Origin: Listeria ivanovii subsp. ivanovii
GTDB lineage: Bacteria > Bacillota > Bacilli > Lactobacillales > Listeriaceae
Length of the DNA: 64,000 nucleotides
Reading direction: 5' to 3'
Assembly: GCF_900187025.1 (NCBI RefSeq)
Contig: NZ_LT906478.1
Coordinates: 2,836,001 to 2,900,000, forward strand
The notes under the pieces were generated by a model, which worked only from the letters and a program-made list of their open reading frames with translations, had not been told where the DNA came from and made no database searches. This document shows positions 6,397 through 8,346 of the stretch, in pieces (within the stretch, counting starts at the first letter, position 1; each line of letters begins with the position of its first letter). The position numbers and the translations under genes were made by a program.

Positions 6397-8010
6397 CTAA
6401 TTTCGTTTCGTCAATGCATAACTATAATTCCCTTCATAGGTGATTAACTGCTGGTTTTCAAGCCAAATTACTTTTGAGCAAAGTTGATCCATAAAGTAGC
6501 GGTCATGCGAGACTGTTATAACTGTTCCCGAAAATGATTTGATGGCTTCTTCTAAAACCTCACGAGATGCAATATCTAAATGGTTCGTCGGTTCATCTAA
6601 AATTAACGTATTGACAGGCATATTAATAAACTGCGCCAGCCTCAGCCTCATTCGTTCGCCACCACTAATATTCCCGACTTTACGAAAGACCATTTCTCCG
6701 TAAAACATAAACCCTGCCAACATTTTTCTTGCATCTCCCTCTGTCACTGCCACCTTATCTCGGAACGCTTCAAGCACAGTCATCTCTTGGTTAAGTTCTT
6801 CCATTTGCTGGGAAAGTGATGCAATTTTAACACTCGCACCAACTTTAATAAAAACGCTATCTGGCGTGACTTCACCCTCTATCATTTTTAGAAGCGTTGT
6901 TTTCCCTGTACCATTTTCACCAATAAGTGCTACTCGTTCCCCTTGTCTAATTTGTAGAGATACATCCTTTACAATCGGCTTGTCTACAAAAGCTTTAGTC
7001 AAATTCTCCATAACTACTACTTCTTGCCCACTACGACCTGCTTCATCAAATTGAAGTTGCATTTGTTTTTGCGTCAAGACAGGTCGCTTCATCATCACGA
7101 TTCGCTCTAAGGCTTTTTCCATGTTCTTTGCTCGGCGAAACATTGCATCACTAGGAGGATTTGATGCCATTGCCCAAATACGTAGCTGTTTAATCGCCTT
7201 TTCCATTTTTTTGATTTTCTTTTGTTGGTCTTTATATTCTTGAAATTCGCGCAATAACCGCTCTTCTCGTTCCTTTAAATAACCAGAAAAATTCGTGTTA
7301 TAAATGATTAGCTCTTTATTTTCCAACTCAACCATTTTCTGAACTACTTCGTCTAAAAAGTATCTATCATGCGATACAACGAAGACAGTTCCAGTATAAT
7401 ATTGCAAAAATGCCGTTAACCATTCTACCGCCATAAAATCTAGGTGGTTTGTTGGTTCATCTAGTAGTAGTAAATCTGTTTTCTGTAACAATAAATGGGC
7501 TAATGCAGTTTTTGTTTTTTCGCCACCGCTTAACTCGCTCCATTTTCTAGTCTTCAGCTTACTGATACCTAAACCATTCACTACTTTGTTCAGATTAGCA
7601 TCCATTTCATAGCCGCCAAGTTCCCCAAATAATGACATCTTATCACCATAGCGATTCAGTAGTTTTTCACTTGTATTTGTTGTGAGCTCTTTCTCTAAGC
7701 TACGAATTTCATTTTCTAATAGTTGAAGTTCTCCAAAGCTTGTCCGCAAATACTCCTCTACATTGATTTCTGGATCAACAGTAGATAACTGCTCTAAAAG
7801 CCCCCCAATTTTCACTCCTTTTTTATGCGTCACGATTCCGTGATCTACACCTTCCGAGCCTTTCAAAATTTTTAAAATGGTACTTTTACCTTCCCCGTTC
7901 CGACCAATTAGGCCAACACGTTCCCCTTCTTCTAACTGAAGTGATACTTTATCTAAAATAATATCTCCTGTAAAATTTTTTACCACGTCATTCATTGCTA
8001 CTATTGTCAT
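6397..8010 (-). CDS. ABC-F family ATPase (ribosome-associated)
   Basis: Twin ATPase domains without membrane segments. The first has GLIGRNGEGKS and signature LSGGEKTKTALA. A charged linker of about 80 residues (about 235-315, including KIKKMEKAIKQLRIWAMA) follows; in ABC-F proteins this enters the ribosomal E site. The second domain has ALIGENGTGKT, ISGGERMRLRLA and DEPTNHLD. ABC-F proteins either act in translation or protect ribosomes from antibiotics; the sequence does not decide which. The ATG at 8010 sits after GGAGGGGAAA; an in-frame ATG at 8022 overlaps this ribosome site and is unlikely. Expression probably depends on read-through of the attenuator at 8073-8311. The gene sits at the place of EGD-e lmo2760 (recalled). 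Confidence 0.9.
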   Translation of the reverse strand: MTIVAMNDVVKNFTGDIILDKVSLQLEEGERVGLIGRNGEGKSTILKILKGSEGVDHGIVTHKKGVKIGGLLEQLSTVDPEINVEEYLRTSFGELQLLENEIRSLEKELTTNTSEKLLNRYGDKMSLFGELGGYEMDANLNKVVNGLGISKLKTRKWSELSGGEKTKTALAHLLLQKTDLLLLDEPTNHLDFMAVEWLTAFLQYYTGTVFVVSHDRYFLDEVVQKMVELENKELIIYNTNFSGYLKEREERLLREFQEYKDQQKKIKKMEKAIKQLRIWAMASNPPSDAMFRRAKNMEKALERIVMMKRPVLTQKQMQLQFDEAGRSGQEVVVMENLTKAFVDKPIVKDVSLQIRQGERVALIGENGTGKTTLLKMIEGEVTPDSVFIKVGASVKIASLSQQMEELNQEMTVLEAFRDKVAVTEGDARKMLAGFMFYGEMVFRKVGNISGGERMRLRLAQFINMPVNTLILDEPTNHLDIASREVLEEAIKSFSGTVITVSHDRYFMDQLCSKVIWLENQQLITYEGNYSYALTKRN

Positions 8011-8045
8011 TTTCCCCTCCATTTATCCGAGGAAGCACAGCAAAA

Positions 8046-8061
8046 TGTTTCACGTGAAACA
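8046..8061. other. parS: parS site 3, upstream of ABC-F gene
   Basis: TGTTTCACGTGAAACA lies between the leader terminator (8073-8102) and the ABC-F start codon, so it is part of the 5' untranslated RNA of any read-through transcript. Confidence 0.9.
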
Positions 8062-8072
8062 TTTTTAGACAA

Positions 8073-8102
8073 CAAAAAAGCGTCAGACAAGCGCCCGACG
8101 CC
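8073..8102 (-). terminator. Leader/sRNA terminator upstream of ABC-F gene
   Basis: Minus strand GGCGTC, then a GGGCGCTTGTCT loop region, GACGC and TTTTTTG. It lies 63 nt before the ABC-F ATG, and no other promoter is obvious in between, so it looks like an attenuator. Confidence 0.8.
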
Positions 8103-8104
8103 AA

Positions 8105-8167
8105 TTATAAGTATAACACTAATTTAGCACTATACAAACCGATTGCGTGACTCCATGCTTCTCTCAT
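8105..8167 (-). CDS. Candidate 20-residue leader peptide 2
   Basis: ATG AGA GAA GCA ... TTA TAA encodes MREAWSHAIGLYSAKLVLYL. It starts 9 nt after the stop of the first micro-ORF and has only a weak ribosome site, so it may be translationally coupled. The stop is directly against the terminator stem, where a stalled or terminating ribosome would affect folding. Confidence 0.4.
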   Translation of the reverse strand: MREAWSHAIGLYSAKLVLYL

Positions 8168-8176
8168 TTTTTCTAG

Positions 8177-8287
8177 TTATGCAGTTTTTTGGGCAGACTT
8201 CGCCAATGTAACTGCAATACCGGAAAAAATTGCACGAACGATATACAAATATTTTGCTATAGTAGTACGCGCATTCAAAAGAAACAT
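8177..8287 (-). CDS. Candidate 36-residue basic small protein / leader peptide 1
   Basis: ATG at 8287 follows GAGGTGAGATGAC, a strong and well-spaced ribosome site about 25 nt after the predicted transcription start. The product begins MFLLNARTTIAKYLYIVRAI and ends in SAQKTA. It has five basic and no acidic residues and a hydrophobic centre, so it could be an amphipathic or membrane-active peptide. Being inside the attenuated leader, it could equally be a regulatory uORF. Too short for ordinary gene finders. Confidence 0.5.
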   Translation of the reverse strand: MFLLNARTTIAKYLYIVRAIFSGIAVTLAKSAQKTA

Positions 8288-8317
8288 GTCATCTCACCTC
8301 TTTCCATTAATACTTAT

Positions 8318-8346
8318 AGAATAACGGACCCCCCTGTAAATGTCAA
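8318..8346 (-). promoter_or_regulatory. Promoter of the RliI-like leader / ABC-F gene
   Basis: Minus strand TTGACA at 8346-8341, exact consensus, 17-nt spacer, TATTCT at 8323-8318. A G-tract of six lies in the spacer. Confidence 0.8.

Follow-up and report, generated by a model that had tools for sequence, protein, structure and literature searches.

The closest described counterparts of the system studied here are ribosome-mediated attenuators of Listeria monocytogenes and Bacillus subtilis. In L. monocytogenes, rli53-lmo0919 and rli59-lmo1652 are described in PMC8079631 as joining antibiotic-sensitive premature termination before an ABC gene to a small leader open reading frame (ORF), and rli80-hflXr is described in PMC6310831 as a drug-induced system with a 14-residue leader ORF and alternative terminator and antiterminator structures. 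In B. subtilis, the ABC-F gene vmlR is preceded, according to PMC9226507, by a stem that covers the leader ORF and acts as an anti-antiterminator, a pause hairpin, and a terminator. For tlrB/yxjB, PMC6851288 describes a NusG-dependent pause that lets ribosomes load on the leader ORF while its ribosome site is still free, with a similar arrangement described for vmlR (PMC9226507). Here we analyze the small RNA RliI and the ABC-F gene downstream of it (lmo2760 type) in a 64,000-nucleotide (nt) stretch of Listeria ivanovii subsp. ivanovii (NZ_LT906478.1, positions 2,836,001 to 2,900,000; hereafter, the window). RliI is quite probably a cis-acting, translation-sensing attenuated leader of this gene, and it appears to work like rli53, vmlR and tlrB, its leader peptide being long and of a distinct type. 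Its 36-codon ORF with an RAxF core differs from the 3-residue ORF described for rli53, the MIN tripeptide of vmlR, the 9-residue RYR leader of tlrB/yxjB (ahead of a ribosomal RNA methyltransferase gene) and the RLR motif of rli80 (ahead of an HflX-type gene), the last being likened to RliI by description and not by sequence.

Part of this is already in print. PMC8079631 places lmo2760 downstream of rliI, names lmo1035-1036 among the trans targets of RliI, and credits the Term-seq study of Dar et al. 2016 with RliI as a putative conditional terminator of lmo2760, so the cis role itself is published. A proteome study lists Lmo2760 among the proteins made only during infection (PMC8407217). What is new here is the relation of the leader ORF to the NCBIfam family RAxF-45 (NF041642) and the linkage of that family to ABC-F genes across Bacilli. 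In the openly licensed literature we found no paper containing RAxF-45, the hairpin module described below or the peptide strings; the ORF may appear in Dar et al. 2016. A ribosome-profiling paper (PMC10710512) contains none of five terms sought in it.

All features of the locus lie on the minus strand, except parS, which has no strand. The Rfam covariance model rliI (RF01487) matches over its full length at 8312-8074 (275.6 bits against a gathering score of 45 bits), giving a 239-nt attenuated transcript where the earlier note had expected one of about 240 nt. The window has no riboswitch aptamer upstream of the terminator, rliI being the only Rfam model to reach its gathering score there. 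The fold of the RNA is unusually stable (z -4.9; 0 of 200 shuffles as stable). The promoter has -35 TTGACA (8346-8341), a 17-nt spacer and -10 TATTCT (8323-8318), and a 25-nt lead runs from 8312 to the ATG of ORF1 at 8287. ORF1 (8287-8177, 36 residues) follows the ribosome site AGAGGTGAG (8301-8293). Nine nucleotides beyond it begins the 20-codon ORF2 (8167-8105), then come an intrinsic terminator of 10 pairs (8102-8079; T run 8079-8074), a perfect parS TGTTTCACGTGAAACA (8046-8061) in the untranslated stretch before the next ribosome site, and the ABC-F gene (8010-6397; Shine-Dalgarno sequence GGAGGGG at 8020-8014, longest ORF from 8022). Every part that the earlier note had listed, from promoter to ABC-F gene, is thus present. 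The consensus scans are at chance level when taken alone (five promoters found against 6.6 expected, one terminator against 1.7), and the rliI promoter pattern is kept in 23 of the 24 Listeria rliI loci despite differing spacers. The same scan, with that limit, lists no promoter between the terminator and 8010, where a separate one would have spoken against the earlier note's proposal.

ORF1 was found in all 24 Listeria rliI loci examined; it has 36 codons in each of the 15 close loci (the window and 14 relatives) and 38-50 in the nine others. An alignment of the ORFs across Listeria, which had been suggested as a check, finds LYIVRAIFS invariant in the 15 close loci, with synonymous changes in codons 14, 16 and 17, just before the R-A-I-F codons (8236-8225) that we take as the candidate stall site. 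The locus therefore has a leader ORF that carries a ribosome site and is conserved as a peptide, and a terminator between this ORF and the gene. Against the RAxF-45 model, ORF1 of the window scores 23.9 bits (E 2.5e-5), short of the 27-bit cut-off; ORF1 at the same locus of a divergent Listeria genome (G022) reaches 46 bits, above it. Judged by sequence, the window's ORF1 is a divergent relative of RAxF-45 and is not counted as a member. Phenicols and linezolid favour arrest after alanine, and with this preference in mind the reading of RA-x-F as an arrest peptide is suggestive. The earlier note had proposed two sensing micro-ORFs, and only the first of them stands. ORF2 encodes 20 residues in 12 of the 15 close loci and 15 residues in three, and 0-50 residues from the first ATG in the nine others; its coding sequence is unconserved among Listeria loci, and we rejected it as a second sensor and judge it non-functional. 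What is kept at its position across Listeria is a GAGAAGCATG-like sequence, the 3' strand of a helix with the ORF1 start region.

RAxF-45 matches (E 0.001 or better) occur in 111 of 398 Bacilli genomes and in 24 of 395 genomes of the order. The set analyzed comprises 118 places, namely 110 of 114 class-level rows (G621, G459, G739 and the window itself being left out) and 8 of 25 order-level rows; the 17 remaining order-level rows are Listeria rliI loci, each with an ABC-F match as well, and G022 belongs to both the rliI and the RAxF-45 sets. On the same strand, an ABC-F gene (at least 34% identity) starts no more than 450 nt downstream in 107 of the 118 places, at a median of 116 nt from the match end, and the linkage is 61/62 among matches of at least 27 bits. 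The offset of L074 was mis-set, which makes its distance and its missing module unreliable. As to the 11 unlinked places, L051 lacks the module and is probably a chance match, L100 and L151 have no ABC-F match downstream, L109 has an ABC-F-like frame 143 nt downstream in which the match is broken, and L158 lies at a contig end. In the other six the match covers the module part only, and the genes that follow are Msr (L125), Mef-like (L139 and L141, the latter named by likeness to the former), RlmA-type (L142), Mph-like (L150) and Vga (L153, named through L178, probably on the same contig, with the gene about 1.25 kb off). Module and ABC-F gene are separated by a terminator in 132 of 134 loci, a count that takes in the Listeria loci and has G022 in it twice. 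Because 107 of the 118 places lie directly upstream of an ABC-F gene, RAxF-45, which NCBI models as a protein family with the core FLYxxRAxF, looks like a leader peptide of ABC-F genes and not a stand-alone protein. An Rfam scan of 20 diverse loci gave gathering scores only for thiamine pyrophosphate (TPP), transfer RNA and rliI models. In 21 of the 134 loci (e.g., L052-L057, L059-L061, L063, L065), two or more terminator-like hairpins precede the ABC-F gene.

The C-terminal signature of RAxF-45, NGIRMPFF, is one reading of a nucleotide module, GGGANNMGUMUGYCC followed by a T tract. In a looser form, this pattern occurs in 113 of the 118 loci. A stop codon stands ahead of the module in 32 of these 113, and in 19 the module is out of the match frame, with the protein match ending before it in 15 of the 19. 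The next seven bases after the module hold five or six T in 97 loci, three or four in 13, and none or one in 3; where a stop precedes the module, 25 loci have six T and 7 have five. The glycine codon of the module is GGG in 55/55, with neighbouring codons of the pattern equally uniform. Since the stop precedes the module or the frame differs in many loci, the C-terminal "domain" appears to be kept as nucleic acid, and this half of RAxF-45 would be a nucleic-acid signal instead of a peptide domain. Parts of other small database "proteins" may likewise be RNA signals read in frame, and caution is warranted.

In the window the module is GGCGAAGUCUGCCC (8204-8191), enclosed by a predicted outer stem (8216-8210 with 8186-8180). 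The hairpin plus T6 of relatives fits the NusG-dependent pause spacing described in PMC12288461, a hairpin and then TTNTTT at -11 to -6; the pause hairpin of vmlR, in the letters given for it (GCUAUUU, UUAUUU), is unlike the module. The module follows the ORF ribosome site and precedes the strand by which this site is sequestered, a place that would suit it to a pause-for-loading role. An A6 run replaces the T tract in all 15 close Listeria loci; among the nine others, four have T6 and five a shorter or broken tract.

The switch itself consists of two pairings that share one strand. In the predicted fold of the window, 8297-8291 pairs with 8151-8145 and 8288-8277 with 8165-8154, forming an anti-antiterminator helix between the ORF1 ribosome site and start (8297-8277) and a downstream strand (8165-8145). 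Within that strand, 8151-8145 (GUCACGC) can pair either with the ribosome site at 8297-8291 or with the terminator 5' arm at 8101-8093 (the antiterminator, 7 bp), and the two predicted pairings would be mutually exclusive. Gap-free anchored covariation around the module is unsuited to this family because spacers vary, so we used a duplex test that compares the energy of matched strands with that of strands permuted between loci (2000 permutations); this and the folding tests were run on the 70 or 64 leaders left after removal of those 80% or more alike. For the ribosome-site region and the downstream strand, the mean energy is -34.4 versus -24.3 kcal/mol (z -18.4, 0/2000 permutations, n = 70), and for the module outer stem -11.9 versus -6.9 kcal/mol (z -15.7, 0/2000, n = 70). 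A match is seen, too, between the downstream strand and the terminator 5' half (z -5.9, n = 64). The module, ORF and ribosome-site regions show no such match with that half in the same 64 leaders (z +1.2, +0.1 and +0.7; other region pairs -0.6 to +1.2). We had considered the module as the antiterminator strand; across the family it pairs no better than permuted strands with either downstream sequence (z -0.2) or the terminator arm (z +1.2), and we rejected this role. Family-wide, the downstream strand further matches the ABC-F ribosome site (z -9.6), a pairing not apparent by eye in the window.

With the ORF1 region blocked in folds of the nascent RNA, 59 of 64 leaders show more antiterminator pairing (the mean goes from 0.16 to 0.54, the window from 0.07 to 0.68); part of the rise is trivial, as blocking frees the strand. 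In a swap control, leaders paired with their own terminator arms at 0.50 versus 0.39 with foreign arms (paired difference 0.109 +/- 0.023), and the own arm exceeded the foreign median in 50 of 64. Taken together, these comparisons of sequence strongly support the pairing with the ribosome site and modestly support the pairing with the terminator arm. The earlier note's central proposal, that RliI is a cis-acting, translation-sensing attenuator, thus gains comparative evidence from across Bacilli.

We propose that the parts operate as follows, where we infer the translation of ORF1, the stall site, an inducing drug and the kinetic capture of the antiterminator. RNA polymerase would start near 8312, and ribosomes would load on ORF1. 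With ORF1 translated normally or the ribosome gone, the strand 8165-8145 would fold back on the ORF1 ribosome site and leave the terminator 5' arm free; the terminator would then form and release RliI of about 239 nt. Ribosomes arrested in ORF1, possibly near R-A-I-F and with the next ribosome occupying the start region, would block this fold-back, whereupon 8151-8145 would pair with 8101-8093 and transcription would enter the ABC-F gene, whose product presumably relieves the ribosomes. In most relatives the hairpin plus T5-6 probably pauses RNA polymerase so that a ribosome loads first; in the window and the 14 relatives close to it, the hairpin core is retained and the T tract is absent. This scheme would bring RliI, whose role has been unclear, and an orphan "protein" family together in one testable mechanism, and the leader would mark ABC-F genes that are probably stress-induced, hence easily missed in untreated cells.

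Several observations weigh against this interpretation. The control windows of the duplex test gave z +1.8, -4.5 and -2.3, and some signal of ancestry or composition is therefore left in the permutation tests. The swap control is modest: just 16 of 64 leaders have an own arm that surpasses the 90th percentile of the foreign ones. The full-length equilibrium fold keeps the terminator when ORF1 is blocked (mean 0.76 versus 0.74); it drops by more than 0.1 in 2 of 64 leaders only, both from Listeria (L023, L024), with values of 0.75 versus 0.67 in the window. As the equilibrium RNA keeps its terminator, antiterminator capture would have to be kinetic, during transcription. Stalling at RAIF would not by itself cover the ORF1 ribosome site, which would stay accessible if no second ribosome came behind. 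The window does not show the NusG-type pause layout; because A6 stands in the place of the T tract, it probably lacks such a pause. ORF1 misses the RAxF-45 cut-off, as given above, and no RAxF-45 match was found in the 11 listed same-family genomes of other genera. Finally, of 76 non-redundant RAxF-45 matches, only 27 contain RA-x-F literally, the other cores being AITH, GIVH or similar, which makes the stall residue uncertain.

Three other explanations have to be set beside an attenuator. A trans role of RliI is in print, as PMC8079631 describes RliI binding and lowering the lmo1035-1036 messenger RNA and PMC11394854 describes it binding Rli51, and this too counts against a cis-acting leader: RliI might act mainly in trans, with the ABC-F gene downstream by chance and read-through incidental. 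A trans-acting RNA need not, however, keep matched switch pairings or precede ABC-F genes across Bacilli as this leader type does (107/118), and trans and cis roles of RliI can coexist; the earlier note was right to call it "not only" trans-acting, and we regard a mainly trans function as improbable. It is more improbable still that RAxF-45 or ORF1 is a small protein with a function of its own, linked to the ABC-F protein by no more than co-transcription. A protein is favoured by the conservation of the peptide, by the NCBIfam model devoted to it, and by codon use where RAxF is literal, with two codons for arginine and three for alanine. Against a protein stand the stops and frame changes before the module (32/113 and 19/113), by which the C-terminal part is kept as nucleic acid, the GGG codon, with the reservation about its neighbours made above, and the terminator that parts ORF from gene in all but two of the 134 loci.

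Read-through might instead be set by the level of ribosome loading, or by a ligand or protein (e.g., at parS or the module), and not by stalling at RAxF. The stall site has been assigned by inference, literal RA-x-F is found in a minority of matches, and the ribosome site itself is taken up in the helix. Of the 24 Listeria rliI loci, 21 have a parS-like site after the terminator and ahead of the gene; L012, among the three that do not, is partly masked. RAIF is nonetheless invariant in the 15 close Listeria loci, and beyond the rliI set a parS-like site turns up in only 1 of 103 RAxF-45 leaders, again that of the Listeria genome G022. We consider a loading- or ligand-set switch unlikely, and prefer a leader in which stalling on ORF1 sets read-through. 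Apart from these alternatives, ParB binding at parS 8046-8061 could influence read-through.

The module is not confined to RAxF-45 leaders. A scan with GGGANNMGTMTGYCCNTTTTT of the 398 Bacilli genomes gave 106 matches in 88 genomes, against at least one for the reversed control among the matches listed. A stricter module pattern occurs in at least 120 stretches of named genomes; the 80 listed carry Bacilli names as far as recognised. Downstream of the 120 are 67 ABC-F genes (at least 36% identity) and 16 weaker ATPase matches, while 18 end too soon and 19 have neither. Thirty loci from the GGGANNMGTMTGYCCNTTTTT scan were followed to the downstream gene. In 14 it is an ABC-F gene 41-49% identical to that of the window, and in 10 another gene of ribosome-drug type (Vga, three Msr-like, another ABC-F, Cfr, two RlmA-type, Mef-like and Mph-like), the Vga gene and one RlmA-type gene lying about 1 kb or more from the module. 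Two more are RibD genes behind a flavin mononucleotide (FMN) riboswitch (L296, L299), one is a GcvT gene behind a glycine riboswitch (L307), and three are unclassified. The genes at L287, L290, L300, L301, L304, L308 and L310 were named by likeness to other loci. Erm and FexA genes after the module come from the named-genome loci. Assignments above NCBIfam cut-offs are Erm (L164, L182), FexA (L218), Msr (L125), Vga (L178), Cfr (L294), RibD and GcvT; the Mef-, Mph- and RlmA-type matches and L185 (FexA type) fall below them. The Erm-type leaders with the module presumably resemble the known ErmD/ErmK attenuators. The module also stands ahead of phenicol-exporter-type (L218, L185) and Cfr-type (L294) genes. 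The reading of a second module class as BmrB-type leaders was dropped after the downstream genes were named.

Because it also follows FMN and glycine riboswitches, the module is no hallmark of drug genes alone; the leaders that a review lists as NusG-paused include that of ribD, which fits the module before RibD. We give roughly even chances to a wider proposal, in which RliI would be one branch of a Bacilli-wide sensor family that combines RAxF-45, a leader peptide arrested by drugs and serving an unstudied clade of ABC-F genes, with a portable pause module ("wait for the sensor") placed before Erm, RlmA-type, Mph-, Mef-, Msr-, Vga-, Cfr- and FexA-type genes and behind FMN and glycine riboswitches, its T tract being lost later in the close Listeria group. 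Such a module would explain why one leader segment is common to unrelated genes, and the hairpin with its T tract would serve as a signature for antibiotic- and metabolite-sensing leaders in Gram-positive genomes.

The product of the window's ABC-F gene scores 453.5 bits against NF000355 (cut-off 380; ABC-F ribosome-protection-like, any resistance being putative), and none of the other 24 families listed for it reaches its cut-off. It is 82-95% identical to its counterparts in 14 genomes of the genus and about 60-65% to those in nine others. It is only 84% identical to two named L. monocytogenes records in a plasmid collection, in a protein search from which near records may be omitted; by this measure the window probably belongs to a Listeria species other than L. 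monocytogenes. Among proteins of solved structure, two ExpZ entries, Uup and EttA come nearest and PoxtA ranks lower, so the inducing drug is not guessable from the protein. Staphylococcal plasmids (L282, L283) carry an ABC-F gene about 47% identical to that of the window, adjoining a recombinase gene. The rliI model matches (E 0.001 or better) in 24 of the 25 Listeria genomes searched, 22 of them above the cut-off; the sole genome with no match is G011, of the same genus and 2.1 Mb in size.

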